A DNA stretch of 44,297 nucleotides from Akkermansiaceae bacterium. GTDB taxonomy: Bacteria > Verrucomicrobiota > Verrucomicrobiia > Verrucomicrobiales > Akkermansiaceae. Both the position numbers and the translations under genes were made by a program. Shown one piece after another: positions 11,352-43,169 of this stretch. The stretch spans positions 1 to 44,297 of the forward strand of contig CAIKHZ010000359.1 in NCBI GenBank assembly GCA_903827375.1. Reading direction: 5' to 3'. Numbering within the stretch: the first letter of the stretch is position 1; each line of letters begins with the position of its first letter. The notes beneath the pieces were generated by a model. That model ran no database searches. It was not told the origin of the DNA and was given only the letters and a program-made list of their open reading frames with translations.

Positions 11352-11403
11352 GCTGGTTCGAGCCCAGCCCCGCGCCAGGGGGTAGCTCAGTTAGGTAGAG
11401 CAG
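11352..11403 (+). pseudogene. tRNA-like remnants: a T-arm followed by a 5' half with D-arm
   Basis: Bases 11352-11368 form a perfect T-arm (5-bp stem GCTGG/CCAGC, loop TTCGAGC) followed by a C/G-rich acceptor-like strand ending in CCA at 11375-11377. Immediately after, 11378-11403 reads like the 5' end of another tRNA, with acceptor G run, TA, and D-arm GCTC...GAGC. Further on, CGGAT and ATCCT around a CTTCCCA loop (11410-11426) resembles a Gly(TCC) anticodon arm, but seven extra bases separate it from the D-arm. No complete cloverleaf can be folded, so these are taken as remnants rather than functional tRNAs. Confidence 0.45.
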
Positions 11404-11447
11404 TTATAACGGATCTTCCCAATCCTTGTCGCGGTTATGTGGGGAGC

Positions 11448-11488
11448 GCCGGCGTCCCGCCGGCAATGTTCGGCATCCTGCCGAACAT
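11448..11488. repeat. Double perfect hairpin, REP-like
   Basis: Two stem-loops lie side by side. The first, 11448-11464, has GCCGGC arms around GTCCC; the second, 11466-11488, has 10-bp arms (ATGTTCGGCA/TGCCGAACAT) around a 3-base loop. The pair interrupts the tRNA-like/rtcB remnant, as a REP-type mobile repeat would. Confidence 0.65.
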
Positions 11489-11496
11489 CCACCATT

Positions 11497-11676
11497 GAAA
11501 CGCTCTACTCCATCCGCAAACCCGACGGGCACGCCGGATATGGTGCGCCGATCGGATGCGTGATGGTATCGCCGACGCATATCTATCCGGGGCCAGTGGG
11601 GGTGGATATCAAGTGCTCAATGTCCCTGTTGCAGCTCAACATCCCAGAAGATGCCCTGGTGGACAAGGCACCCGAC
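11497..11676 (+). pseudogene. rtcB: RtcB (RNA ligase) N-terminal fragment
   Basis: The frame translates to about 60 residues containing DGHAGYGAPIGCVM, then PGPVGVDIKCSMSLLQLNI, which match the N-terminal RtcB segments with the HxGYG.PIG and GGVG.DI.CG-type metal/GMP-site motifs. Full RtcB proteins are about 400-480 residues. Here the match starts abruptly after the hairpins and is lost after about 11676, where the frame runs to a stop at 11718 without the rest of the protein. The conserved Cys-Gly of the second motif reads Cys-Ser. It is therefore a decayed fragment of an RNA-repair ligase gene. Confidence 0.6.
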
Positions 11677-11807
11677 GCCTATTCGGCATCACCGAGGCAG
11701 CCCGCAGCACCCGTATGATCACCGTGGTGGGGGCGTAGAAGTGCGCCAGCGGTGTTCTGTTCACTGGGGCGCAATCAGGGCGCGTTGAGGCCGCCGCCCC
11801 TACCGCG

Positions 11808-14168: not shown

Positions 14169-14197
14169 GATGGGGTCAGTCCTCGCATTGTAACATT
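14169..14197 (-). repeat. Left terminal inverted repeat of the RAYT element
   Basis: A 29-base end containing GGGGTCAGTCCTCGCATTG. On the minus strand it supplies the last two sense codons and TGA stop of the transposase. It differs from the right end by one base. Confidence 0.75.
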
Positions 14198-15201
14198 TGT
14201 TCGAGGTGTTGCAGGTGTTTTCTCACTTCGTTGTGGTCGGCCGCCTGCCGGATCAGCCGGCTTACTGATCGATCGTGGCCCATTTCGAGTCTTTTTGCGA
14301 TCCACTGGTTACTGATCGAGGTGTGCGTGCGCAGCAGGGTTGCCAGCGCCACCTTGCGCGGGTCACCTTTGCGGGCGGAAAGCAACTTTTCGTCCTCATC
14401 GCACAACTCCAACTCCCTCAAGCCGACTGCGACCAAGCGCTCAGCCTCCCGCTCGCCGTGTGCAGCCACCGCCTTTCCGCTGTGGCTGCCACCCTTGCGC
14501 AACGCCTTGTTGCCTTTCTCCACCAAGGCCAGCAAGCGGTCCCGGAACGACTCATCGCCTAAGTACCAACCCCGGCGCAGCGCAGCGCTCGCCTCTGGCG
14601 AGAACTTCCCTCCATTCTCAGCCGCACGGGCCTCAAGATAATCCACATACGCAAGCCGACCCCGGGCATCCGTCGCGAGCTGGTGGGCCGCCAGTACGCG
14701 GTCGGAAACCTGCCAGAGAGGAGCTTTGCCAGAAAGATACGCAGGGAGGCTGCTCCATGCGTACCCGACGAGCTTGCCGTGTTCGCCGCCGGCCAACCCG
14801 GCGCGGGCGGCGTTGAGGTGGATGTAGTCCGCAACGACTTTGAATTGCGAAGCGTCGCCCGCGCCTGCCCCGGCTACCGGCACGGATTTGTAACGGCCTT
14901 GGAATACATGGCCTCTTCGACTGTGCAACCGGTTCCATGCTTGGCTGAAAGCGCCGAGCAACAGGCGCATGCCGGAGACGAGGTTGGGCTCGGGCGTTTC
15001 CAGCAGCAGATGAAAGTGGTTGCCCATGAGGGTCCAGGCATGTACACGCCAACCGCAGCTTCGGCACACCTCGCCTAGCCGGTGCAGGAACAACAGGGGC
15101 TCGTCCTTCACAACAAAAATGGCCTTGCCTCCGTCACCGCGGGCCATGACATGATAGACAGCCCCCGCATACTCGAATCTCAATGATCTAGCCATCCACA
15201 A
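14176..15201 (-). CDS. REP-associated tyrosine transposase (Y1_Tnp, HUH family)
   Basis: A 341-residue single-strand DNA transposase. The N-terminal Y1 domain begins SLRFEYAGAVYHVMARGDGG; the HUH metal motif is HFH at residues 62-64 in LMGNHFHLLLE; and the likely nucleophile is Tyr126 in ADYIHLNAARAGL, the usual RAYT tyrosine helix. The C-terminal ~150 residues form an extra helical region ending in a helix-turn-helix-like segment (ISNQWIAKRLEMGHDRSVSRLI), as in long RAYTs that carry a DnaA-C-like domain. All key residues are intact, so it may be active. The alternative start at 15195 drops only two residues. Confidence 0.9.
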   Translation of the reverse strand: MWMARSLRFEYAGAVYHVMARGDGGKAIFVVKDEPLLFLHRLGEVCRSCGWRVHAWTLMGNHFHLLLETPEPNLVSGMRLLLGAFSQAWNRLHSRRGHVFQGRYKSVPVAGAGAGDASQFKVVADYIHLNAARAGLAGGEHGKLVGYAWSSLPAYLSGKAPLWQVSDRVLAAHQLATDARGRLAYVDYLEARAAENGGKFSPEASAALRRGWYLGDESFRDRLLALVEKGNKALRKGGSHSGKAVAAHGEREAERLVAVGLRELELCDEDEKLLSARKGDPRKVALATLLRTHTSISNQWIAKRLEMGHDRSVSRLIRQAADHNEVRKHLQHLEQMLQCED

Positions 15202-15233: not shown

Positions 15234-15262
15234 AATGTTACCATGCGAGGACTGACCCCATC
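15234..15262 (+). repeat. Right terminal inverted repeat of the RAYT element
   Basis: A 29-base end containing GCGAGGACTGACCCCATC, reverse complement of the left end at 28 of 29 positions and equal to the solo copy at 40495-40523 at 28 of 29 positions. It ends 14 bases before the stop codon of the adjacent FGE-domain gene. Confidence 0.75.
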
Positions 15263-39369: not shown

Positions 39370-40230
39370 ATGCTAACCGTCGGAGTGCCAGTGTTCAATG
39401 CCGAGCGCTTTCTCGAGCGTTGCCTGACCAATCTTTGTGCGGAAGACCTCGACTATAAAATCGTTATATCCGACAACGCATCCACCGACCGGACAGCGGA
39501 AATTGCGCAGGCATTTGCCAAAGCCGACGGGCGAATCCACTACATCCACCATGAAACCAACTTGGGCGCATGGGGAAATTTCCAGTATTTGCTAGATAGT
39601 GCGACTACGGAGTTGTTTGCGTGGCGGGCTTATGACGATCTCAGTTCGCCAGACTATTTCAAAACCCTTTCGGCGACATTGGAGAGCCAGCCACAGTTCC
39701 ATCTGGCCGTCGGCAGCCTGGCCTATGAGGACGAGCAAGGAACACCTCCCGCCCCGCAGCAAGTCCCGGCGTTGCTGCCAGAAGATCCAGCGCAACGCCG
39801 CGCATCGCTCCTGCGCATCGCCGAAGTGACGTGGATTTATGCGGTTTTCAGGCGCCACGAGTTATGTCGGCGCTATGCTGCTGCTCGACAAGCCTATGCG
39901 TATGTTTGGTCATTCGATCCCTTGGTGATTCTGCCGTTTGTGCTCGAAGCCAGCGTCGTCACCGAGCCGAATGTCACATTCACTCAATATGTTTGTGGGG
40001 GATCGGCTGCGCGTTACCGGCCAAAAGGTGTCATCGCCAGCTCCCGCTTGGTATCACAATTCTGCCGCCATGGGTTTTCCATCGCAGATGAATTGTCAAC
40101 CTCGCCCACCGAACGTCTCCAACTCTACGCCGATGTGATTCGTTATACGAACAAGTACGGTCTAAAGTTTTCGCGCATCGCTAAGCGAGCCCTGTTGTGG
40201 CCCTACTACCGTCTAGCCAATCAATTGTGA
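39370..40230 (+). CDS. Family 2 glycosyltransferase
   Basis: A 286-residue GT2 (GT-A fold) enzyme. The N terminus LTVGVPVFNAERFLERCL and ISDNASTDRTAEIA bind the nucleotide, and the DxD-like motif is WRAYDDLSSPDYF. No clear transmembrane helices are present apart from a hydrophobic C terminus (ALLWPYYRLANQL), so it is cytoplasmic or membrane-associated. As the last gene of the operon it is a candidate to transfer the CDP-branched sugar to the growing glycan. Acceptor and donor are inferred from position only. Confidence 0.85.
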   Translation: MLTVGVPVFNAERFLERCLTNLCAEDLDYKIVISDNASTDRTAEIAQAFAKADGRIHYIHHETNLGAWGNFQYLLDSATTELFAWRAYDDLSSPDYFKTLSATLESQPQFHLAVGSLAYEDEQGTPPAPQQVPALLPEDPAQRRASLLRIAEVTWIYAVFRRHELCRRYAAARQAYAYVWSFDPLVILPFVLEASVVTEPNVTFTQYVCGGSAARYRPKGVIASSRLVSQFCRHGFSIADELSTSPTERLQLYADVIRYTNKYGLKFSRIAKRALLWPYYRLANQL

Positions 40231-40494
40231 CCCCCATCCCGCCCCCCGGAAACTCGCCACGTTGGGCCTAGGCGCTGCATCCTGGCCTCCGCCCTTCCGC
40301 CGCACTTCATGCATTGCCGGTTCATGCACGGCCCAGATAAGTATCCGCGATGTCGTCCGCGATGTCGTCCGCCGTCGCGGACGACACCTCACGCAGGCAC
40401 CCTCACTCAGTGTCCAACCTCGCTTTCCACAACGAAACCAGCAAGTCGTGTTCCCTAAACGCCGATTGCAGGCGGATGAATCATGTGTCTAGCA
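40231..40494. other. Intergenic region with a strong hairpin between polysaccharide operon and CRISPR locus
   Basis: No gene is seen. A 12-bp perfect stem (40351-40362 with 40375-40386, arms TGTCGTCCGCGA/TCGCGGACGACA) lies 121 bases after the last polysaccharide gene. Its left arm also contains a direct repeat (GCGATGTCGTCC twice, at 40347-40370). It could end transcription from the left or from the CRISPR array on the right, but no T run follows. Confidence 0.45.
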
Positions 40495-40523
40495 AATGTT
40501 ACCGTGCGAGGACTGACCCCATC
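40495..40523 (+). repeat. Solo copy of the RAYT element terminal repeat at the array trailer end
   Basis: Twenty-nine bases equal to the right terminal repeat at 15234-15262 except for one base (CGTG for CATG), so GAGGACTGACCCCATC is conserved; the next two bases, GA, are shared too. It is joined directly to the truncated CRISPR repeat at 40526. No transposase gene or second end is present nearby. Confidence 0.75.
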
Positions 40524-40525
40524 GA

Positions 40526-40909
40526 CGCCACGAATGGCGCGGAAATAAAGCAGCAAGGACGCGCTTGCGATGGCTCAAACGTTGGCTTCAATGTGACCGC
40601 GCCACGAATGGCGCGGAAATTGGCGTAACCTATGACGGCACCACAGCCATCACCATGCTTCAATGTGACCGCGCCACGAATGGCGCGGAAATTTCTTGAG
40701 CTAATCGACCACAATTCACCCGGCGAGGGCTTCAATGTGACCGCGCCACGAATGGCGCGGAAATATGCCCGAACTTGATGACGCAGGCTCCCTGCCAAAA
40801 GCGCTTCAATGTGACCGCGCCACGAATGGCGCGGAAATAAGTGTGATTGTGCATGTATTAGCGGTTACATTTAGCTTCAATGTGACCGCGCCACGAATGG
40901 CGCGGAAAT
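40526..40909 (-). CRISPR. CRISPR array: five full 36-bp repeats, one truncated repeat, five spacers
   Basis: Full repeats lie at 40585-40620, 40657-40692, 40729-40764, 40803-40838 and 40874-40909 and are identical as read. A 21-base partial repeat at 40526-40546 matches only one end. On the plus strand each repeat begins GCTTCAATGTGACC and contains a perfect stem CCGCGCCA/TGGCGCGG around CGAA. Spacers are 40547-40584, 40621-40656, 40693-40728, 40765-40802 and 40839-40873 (35-38 bases). On the minus strand repeats end in ATTGAAGC, a common repeat 3' end, and the degenerate repeat falls at the far end from cas2, so transcription on the minus strand with the leader at 40910 onward is inferred. 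A short array suggests modest or recently reset acquisition. Confidence 0.95.
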
Positions 40910-41115: not shown

Positions 41116-41427
41116 TCAGAAGATATGGGAGCGGACCTGCGGCGTCCATTCTTTTCCGATGCAATGGAGGTTTTGCGTTAGATCCACAGTGACGTCGCCG
41201 ATATCGAGAATAAGCAGTTGGTCGTCGTCCTGGTGAATGATTTCTCGGCTGAGAGCCACCAATCTGGCACGTTCCGACTCGTTGAGTTCGCATAAGAAGA
41301 CACTGAACTGGACGTGTTCGCCACGATCCTTGAGGGCCTCAAAAAGTTTGTTGCGGCGCTTGTCGTCCGCCACATCGTAGGTGCAGAGATAGAGGCGGCG
41401 GTAATGATTCAGCGCACGACGGGACAT
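41116..41427 (-). CDS. cas2: CRISPR-associated endoribonuclease Cas2
   Basis: A 103-residue Cas2, the normal size; it bridges Cas1 dimers during spacer integration. The first strand LYLCTYDVADDKRRNKLFEAL carries the conserved Asp, followed by GEHVQFSVFLCEL and a C-terminal DDQLLILDIGDV. The ATG at 41427 is chosen because the extension to 41598 lies inside the cas4-cas1 gene. The start overlaps the cas4-cas1 stop by 19 bases, so the two are translationally coupled on the minus strand. The array follows 206 bp downstream. Confidence 0.95.
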   Translation of the reverse strand: MSRRALNHYRRLYLCTYDVADDKRRNKLFEALKDRGEHVQFSVFLCELNESERARLVALSREIIHQDDDQLLILDIGDVTVDLTQNLHCIGKEWTPQVRSHIF

Positions 41428-43169
41428 GTGAAGGCTGGGATGTCGCCACGCAACCAACGGGCCAGCAGGCGGGCTTGAATTTTGATGATGGTGCGCCATG
41501 AACAGCGGTAATCGAAAAGCGGATGGGTATAGAGTTGGTCGAGGCGTTGTTCCCACGCTTGGAGGAGGGCCTTCTTGCCTTTGGGTTGAAGCGCGCAACC
41601 ATTGGCGTTGGTAACAAAATCCCGGCCTTTGACCATGCCGGTATTGATGGCGGTGAGCACCACGCTATCGGCCACCAGCGGACGGAACGGCTCCATGAGG
41701 TCGAGCGCCAAAGCCGGTCGGCCATGGCGTGCCTGATGATAGAACCCCCACCAAGGATCGAGCCCCTCAGCCATTAAGGCGACTGAGCATTCCTTAGCTA
41801 ACAGTGCGTAGCAAAACGAAAGCAACGCATTGACCGGATCCTTGGGTGGGCGGCGGTTGCGAGAAGTAAACTGGAAGTCTCCCAATTCCCCGGTCTTGAG
41901 CATTGATGAAAATGCTGAGAAATAGCTGGCCGCAGCCTGACCTTCACAGCCAAGTAATTGATACAGATCGGCGAACTCTAGGTGGGGAAAATCCTTGAGT
42001 TGGCGGGTGAGGGAGAGCAGCGCTGACTCGGCAGCCGGTCCGTTGCCGTTGCGTTGGATGAGTATCCGCTGATTTGATATTTTAGCGCGGACGATTTCCC
42101 TGGCAAAGGTGAGGCAGCGTGCGGGATCGGTGGCCGCCGTGTATTGAGCTGAGCGGTTGTAGGCGTTGCGGATGCCTTGGCCATGAGAGATTCCATGAAA
42201 CCAACCGCCGGTGGACAGGTGGATCACGGGAATCTCCTTTTCCATCAACAAATGGAGGGCCTGTGCGGAAAGTTGTACATTGCCCATAAGCACCAGCTGG
42301 GAAATATCGCGGAGTTTTGCTTCGCCAAGCTTTTCGTCGCCCTTGTGAATTTCCAGCCGTTCGCTGGTCTTGCCGATTCGAGCGCCCTGCTCCTGCACGT
42401 AGAGCGGCGTGGCGTGGTCGCGGGCCGGATAGAGCCGACGCGGGTCTGGGCCATGATCGGGCTTGTTGTTGGAAGTGGCGGCATTCGCTTCATCACGAAG
42501 CTCGCGGGTTTCATCAGGCAAACAAATTCCATTGAGCGAGCATCCCCAACACTTGGGACTGTCATCCAACGGCAACGGCATTTCTTGTGCATCCCGCCCA
42601 ACACGCACTGCGGCAATGATGGCACGGGTCTCGGCCTCCAGTTCGGCACTGAACTCGATGCGAACCCGCAAGCGACTGCCTGCATAATAGATGTACCCGT
42701 GATTGCTGGTGTAGCCATGAGCCCGTAAAAGCAGTCCTTGCGCCATGAGTTGGGCACGTTCGGGCGGGTAACTGCGCTCCGGCGTGTTAGGCACTCGTGC
42801 CTTTTTGGTTTCCACCGGCACCGCCTCGCCTCCCTCGGGATCGGCTGACACCAAATCAAGTTTGCCCATGAGACCCAGCACCTCACAACCCAATGCAACA
42901 CTGCGGGCAATAATCGGTGGGGCATCGCCGATACTCTCGCTTTCTGCGCTTTCCGGTGCGTCGCTCTTTTGTTCAGTTGTCTCCGGTAACAGATTGTCGA
43001 TTCGATCTACGCGGCGATGCACATCCTTGCCGACCAGCGTGTGAGCATTGTCTTCCCAGCGCCCTTCGACATACATGAGGTGATATCGCCGGGGGCAATA
43101 GGCATGCTGGGCTACCATGTCAATGGTGCTCCAGTCATCTGGAAGTTCTGAGGAAAGTTCGTTGCCCAT
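41409..43169 (-). CDS. cas4-cas1: Cas4-Cas1 fusion protein, spacer-acquisition integrase with PAM-selecting nuclease
   Basis: A 586-residue fusion. The Cas4 half (about residues 10-220) has the four iron-sulfur cysteines, Cys25 in AYCPRRYHL and Cys207, Cys210, Cys216 in CWGCSLNGIC, plus RecB-type residues in GKLDLVSAD and VETKKAR. A linker of about 30 residues leads to Cas1, beginning PLYVQEQGARIGK. Cas1 active-site residues are Glu409 (GCEGQAAASYF), His478 (FYHQARHGRPALALDL) and Asp490/Glu493 (DLMEPFR). All appear intact. Such fusions are known in type I-G (formerly I-U) and V-B systems; cas2 follows directly. The effector genes are not contained in this window, apart from a possible one at the edge. 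Confidence 0.95.
   Translation of the reverse strand: MGNELSSELPDDWSTIDMVAQHAYCPRRYHLMYVEGRWEDNAHTLVGKDVHRRVDRIDNLLPETTEQKSDAPESAESESIGDAPPIIARSVALGCEVLGLMGKLDLVSADPEGGEAVPVETKKARVPNTPERSYPPERAQLMAQGLLLRAHGYTSNHGYIYYAGSRLRVRIEFSAELEAETRAIIAAVRVGRDAQEMPLPLDDSPKCWGCSLNGICLPDETRELRDEANAATSNNKPDHGPDPRRLYPARDHATPLYVQEQGARIGKTSERLEIHKGDEKLGEAKLRDISQLVLMGNVQLSAQALHLLMEKEIPVIHLSTGGWFHGISHGQGIRNAYNRSAQYTAATDPARCLTFAREIVRAKISNQRILIQRNGNGPAAESALLSLTRQLKDFPHLEFADLYQLLGCEGQAAASYFSAFSSMLKTGELGDFQFTSRNRRPPKDPVNALLSFCYALLAKECSVALMAEGLDPWWGFYHQARHGRPALALDLMEPFRPLVADSVVLTAINTGMVKGRDFVTNANGCALQPKGKKALLQAWEQRLDQLYTHPLFDYRCSWRTIIKIQARLLARWLRGDIPAFTCPVVR

Follow-up and report, generated by a model that had tools for sequence, protein, structure and literature searches.

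A 3′-truncated terminal repeat of a type I-G CRISPR array lies beside a near-complete REP-headed element in an Akkermansiaceae genome

The old end of the CRISPR array described here probably brings together two ordinary things that lie side by side, a decayed terminal repeat and a non-autonomous element of a REP family. The sequence analyzed (the window) is a stretch of 44,297 nucleotides from an Akkermansiaceae bacterium (contig CAIKHZ010000359.1, assembly GCA_903827375.1), and its features are given in Table 1. The initial annotation had read this junction as a CRISPR repeat cut at base 21 and fused to a solo transposon end, and had proposed either that a Y1 element, perhaps attracted by the repeat's hairpin, inserted there and then lost its body, or that recombination at the end deleted the older part of the array. 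The cut itself was confirmed, given that the terminal repeat is an exact 21-base match to the 36-bp repeat. The solo end and the lost body were not borne out.

Table 1. Position and identification of the features discussed, numbered along the window
Feature	Position	Strand	Basis
First of the two REP copies that bound the RAYT element	14169-14195	-	Sequence match to the array-side REP
RAYT-like Y1 transposase gene	14176-15201	-	Pfam Y1_Tnp 25.3 bits (cut-off 23); NF047646 45.9 bits, below the cut-off of 80
Second of these REP copies, inverted	15236-15262	+	Sequence match to the array-side REP
Stretch beyond the element	40230-40400	-	No sign of the 15 lost repeat bases
Near-complete, ~121-bp non-autonomous REP-headed element	40401-40523	-	Certain homology between 40523 and about 40405; off consensus in the final ~5 bases
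REP head of the element	40495-40523 (core 40505-40521)	-	Core in 73 genome places at ≤2 mismatches
Leader-distal CRISPR repeat	40526-40546	-	First 21 of 36 bases kept, exact match; class 3′-truncated
Five full CRISPR repeats with spacers	40585-40620, 40657-40692, 40729-40764, 40803-40838, 40874-40909	-	Repeats mutually identical
Open frame holding cas2	41116-41598	-	Pfam CRISPR_Cas2 63.1 bits; NCBIfam cas2 44.5 (cut-off 24.5)
cas4-cas1 fusion, type I-G	41409-43169	-	NF049935 673.7 bits (cut-off 560)
Type I-G Cas3-extension protein, fragment near contig end	43744-44292	-	NF049934 59 bits (cut-off 65), profile positions 171-298 of 299

The locus carries the Cas4g/Cas1g fusion and the cas2 next to the array that characterize type I-G. 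As for the effectors of this type, the contig stops inside the Cas3-extension gene; Csb2 and Cas3g are present in G170, a genome of the same genus. The array spans 40526-40909, with a crRNA sense on the minus strand and a leader on the cas side, so that 40526 is its old end; the repeat there is leader-distal given that cas2 and cas4-cas1 lie on the opposite side and read towards the array. When 30 bases of the repeat were searched with up to three mismatches, no further copies were found elsewhere in the genome. The lost 3′ part of the repeat would be needed solely for the 5′ handle of the next crRNA, which this end of the array does not have. A transcript folded across the junction of repeat and element gave a z of -0.31, and the search of the window against Rfam returned zero matches at the gathering threshold. 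ARAGORN called no tRNA genes in the window. By eye, a likeness to a tRNA's 5′ half was seen at 11383-11718, ahead of a short frame that matches the RtcB profile at positions 14-67 of 426 only, and this frame reads as the remains of an RtcB gene.

Related arrays indicate that a transposon is not needed for a cut of this kind, given that six of the 25 others with a readable end are similarly cut in the absence of an element. These arrays derive from a Cas4-Cas1 alignment search of 384 genomes of the class, which gave 65 places besides that of the window. Downstream stretches were retrieved for 37 of these places, picked for contig room, and for G170, G237, and one Phycisphaeraceae locus. Fifteen of the 37 had no readable end, either because of a contig end, an array not detected by the script, or an odd consensus. 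Among the 26 readable arrays, the window's included, the terminal repeat is 3′-truncated in seven, degenerate in three, and carries some mismatches in two, and the remaining 14 have none of these past their last full repeat. The other six truncated repeats retain 20, 22, 26 (with one mismatch), 26, 28, and 28 bases. The repeat is clearly different in five of the 25 other arrays, and truncation is found in four of the 20 that have a similar one. The fact that 14 of the 25 end in a full repeat, as does that of G237, means that truncation is common and not the rule. By this comparison, the cut terminal repeat of the window looks ordinary.

What sets the window apart is the neighbor of the cut. 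No other truncated array has an element at the cut, and in all 25 other arrays the REP core (≤2 mismatches over 13 bases) was absent within 600 bases, counted from where the last full repeat begins; two of these arrays were represented by shorter stretches. The nearest case is the array of G170, with 38 repeats, where the terminal repeat is cut at base 28 and is followed without a gap by tandem copies of about CTCTTGATTCTTG (locus L090, 10760-10880). The same locus contains, at about 9638 and 9926, two near-identical spacers a few units apart, likely an internal duplication.

The 29 bases beyond the cut had been taken for a copy of the terminal repeat of the RAYT element. The likeness stands, given that 40497-40523 matches both ends of that element, with two mismatches to 14169-14195 and one to 15236-15262 (mean of 0.00 in 100 shuffles), but the homology continues far past the 29 bases, to about 40405. 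The array-side copy has its own body of ~90 bp after the REP head and departs just in about the last five bases from the ~121-bp element, the right end of which is GAGTTCTG. The unit at the array is thus a near-complete non-autonomous element and not a solo transposon end. It occupies a non-coding stretch between the array and a convergent glycosyltransferase gene, with the REP head 2 bp from the repeat remnant. The two bases between them are GA (40524-40525, + strand), which had been described as shared with the end of the real element. The GA is there, but it carries little weight, given that among 44 usable flanks the last four bases ahead of TGGGG are TCGA ten times and CCGA ten times. YGA before TGGGG is the sole preference seen in the flanks of the copies. 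On the other side of the element, a GC-rich palindrome (GTCGTCCG...CGGACGAC) was noticed by eye at 40350-40390, between the element and the glycosyltransferase gene, and is a possible terminator for the convergent transcripts.

The element is one of a large family. The places counted for the core come from a 6.1-Mb assembly in 370 contigs, in which the reversed pattern, used as control, has 0; all 73 were retrieved and, with one identical duplicate set aside, represent 72 distinct contexts. A query of 123 bases gave at least 45 matches in the genome, itself included, and at least 30 of the other 44 are nearly full-length (starting within six bases and reaching base 118 or further), at 72-81% identity, both counts being lower bounds from the 40 of 107 candidates that were scored. 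There is also a shorter form, of about 80 bp, from which an internal segment is missing. The exact core is present in 9 of 195 genomes of the bacterial family. The copy at the array is the sixth most diverged of 41 aligned rows (counting L066, a probably spurious row), and, being among the more diverged copies, it does not look like a recent arrival. A short core in many copies per genome is a mark of REP sequences and REPINs, and this the family has. The two inverted REPs that make up a REPIN were not found: the array copy has one standard REP, and none of the 72 contexts has an inverted REP pair around a body, that of the RAYT gene excepted. For the single standard REP of the array copy, the element is filed here as REP-headed and not as a REPIN. 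Head-to-head elements also occur, with twelve REP copies that have an inverted neighbor ahead of them through CCCCATCGG-like junctions, several at contig ends (L004, L007, L011, L012, L023, L024, L025, L026, L033, L048, and L052).

The partner of the element is likely the RAYT-like gene of the window. This gene lies between two inverted copies of the REP, as expected of a cognate RAYT, and related RAYT genes in G170 and G023 (67% and 59% identity) are likewise enclosed by two inverted REP copies. The assignment of the 29 bases to the repeats of the RAYT element thus held, given that one REP family both flanks this gene and adjoins the truncated terminal repeat. The genome contains six Y1 genes or pieces of such genes, and among the stretches retrieved, three of which (for the other Y1 genes) sit at contig ends, the REP core is found at that of the window alone. 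When 2.4 kb around the RAYT gene were compared with other genomes, the matches listed for G170 and G186 (best 40 of 93-94 candidates scored) do not extend past the RAYT element and the bases that immediately border it, and for this reason the exact borders of the element are set by the copies themselves. In G170, the same REP occurs as classical inverted pairs about 80 bp apart (for example at 777 and 856 in L134, 777-872), with five such pairs among the places found. Compared with the one REP and different right end found in the genome of the window, this suggests that the unit has changed within one genus.

The Y1 scenario of the initial reading, insertion of a Y1 (RAYT) element attracted by the repeat's hairpin and subsequent loss of the body of the element, is hardly credible. 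It could appeal to the 29 bases common to the RAYT ends and to the hairpin that abuts the left end of the element, but the full-length alignment refutes the loss of the body, since the body is present and is that of a non-autonomous unit, one of dozens. Copies of the 29 bases unconnected to Y1 genes had been named in advance as evidence that would count against a Y1 origin, and these are what the genome holds: in 67 stretches of up to ~3 kb on both sides of the non-window copies, a single RAYT match was obtained, a weak fragment of 30 residues (L061). In the 72 contexts, RAYT protein matches downstream of the REP are limited to three, the two ends of the window's RAYT gene and this same fragment. 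Full-length relatives across the genome, together with RAYT remains near one of the 67 stretches, make a lost body the wrong explanation. Nor is attraction to hairpins supported, because the left flanks fold much like the control windows. The mean for 41 copies is -3.97 kcal/mol, against -3.44 to -3.69 in four upstream and -3.12 to -4.26 in five downstream control windows (the other 31 of 72 contexts had a flank below 200 bases or an adjacent element and were excluded), and 12 of the 41 left flanks fold below -5 kcal/mol compared with 8-13 in the upstream controls. The flank of the array copy is the third most stable of the 41 (-8.8 kcal/mol), on account of the hairpin of the CRISPR repeat.

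The preferred reading, that a decayed repeat and a REP-family element lie side by side, would combine a leader-distal repeat shortened at its 3′ side, a common fate of terminal repeats, with an element that would have been moved by the RAYT and would have arrived long ago. The element may have landed in or next to a terminal repeat that was already decaying, or a later deletion may have ended at its border. What counts against this reading is the distance of just 2 bp between the two borders, a closeness rarely expected from independent events. This distance, and the left end of the element sitting where the repeat stops, would fit an insertion of the element into an intact repeat, after about base 21, followed by loss of the repeat's far half along with any older spacers. 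There is a precedent on record for a MITE in a CRISPR array (PMC3119063). Such an insertion is nonetheless unlikely: the other half of the repeat was not found on the far side of the element, where the best match to the missing 15 bases within 172 bases is 9 of 15, equalled by 49.4% of shuffles. Moreover, the far end of the element is nearly intact, so the deletion would need to start just beyond it. A separate candidate, in which the 21-base piece is set into an otherwise retained repeat, was suggested by CGGTAACATT after the REP core, which resembles the missing CGGTCACATT in nine of ten positions. It was rejected because GGTAACATT is the family consensus, with the C found in other copies too, and because at least one repeat-element match of 9 of 10 is seen in 6.5% of 400 shuffles.

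A deletion could also have run from the left end of an element lying in the trailer into the array, removing older spacers and stopping within a repeat. This would account for a border at the very end of the element and for an array that is short (five full repeats, against 38 in G170), but it has left no direct trace, and a strain with a longer array was not found in the genomes searched; we regard it as quite unlikely. The wider proposal that RAYT-moved REP-headed elements enter arrays at the repeat hairpin and cap their old end, with a fixed terminal repeat that cannot recombine and so protects the array from collapse, is very doubtful.

No strain with the cut repeat or the element, but not both, was found. 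The syntenic genome G186 keeps the neighboring glycosyltransferase gene (93% protein identity), but its sequence diverges from that of the window near 40316 and its contig stops soon after. No array was found in the 782 bases read there, nor the CRISPR repeat at up to three mismatches in the genome. A search with the 163 bases past the element against 195 genomes of the family returned, among the matches listed (best four candidates scored per listed genome), only the window itself and two short matches, 24 and 29 bases long. Neither G186 nor these 195 genomes provided a close strain with an empty site.

The finding otherwise changes little, given that both of its parts are known phenomena, and its contribution is to the record. 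It adds a REP-headed non-autonomous family with a likely RAYT in a Verrucomicrobiota genome, a single member of which adjoins the old end of a CRISPR array, and a small base rate for 3′-truncated terminal repeats in readable arrays downstream of related Cas1 genes (7/26, counting that of the window).

In a narrow search of the open-licence literature, judged by titles and the opening lines of abstracts, no report that places a REP element at the terminal repeat of a CRISPR array was found. Passages of a review (PMC8047081) describe substitutions and deletions at the 3′ side of terminal repeats as frequent, and the leader-distal repeat of the window, lacking its 3′ part, resembles these cases. 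It differs in that its cut lies 2 bp from a dispersed element, of which these passages make no mention. In Haloquadratum walsbyi HBSQ001, a CRISPR array contains the MITE HqIRS37 (PMC3119063), which is alike in being a miniature non-autonomous element at an array; HqIRS37, however, lies in a spacer with repeats on both sides, whereas the element of the window lies past the last repeat. With the REPs and REPINs associated with RAYTs, as presented by Bertels and Rainey (2011, PMC3116915), the family of the window shares the core in many copies, the RAYT between inverted REPs, and the miniature element that carries no gene, while it departs from REPINs in having one standard REP on the left and the different right end GAGTTCTG.
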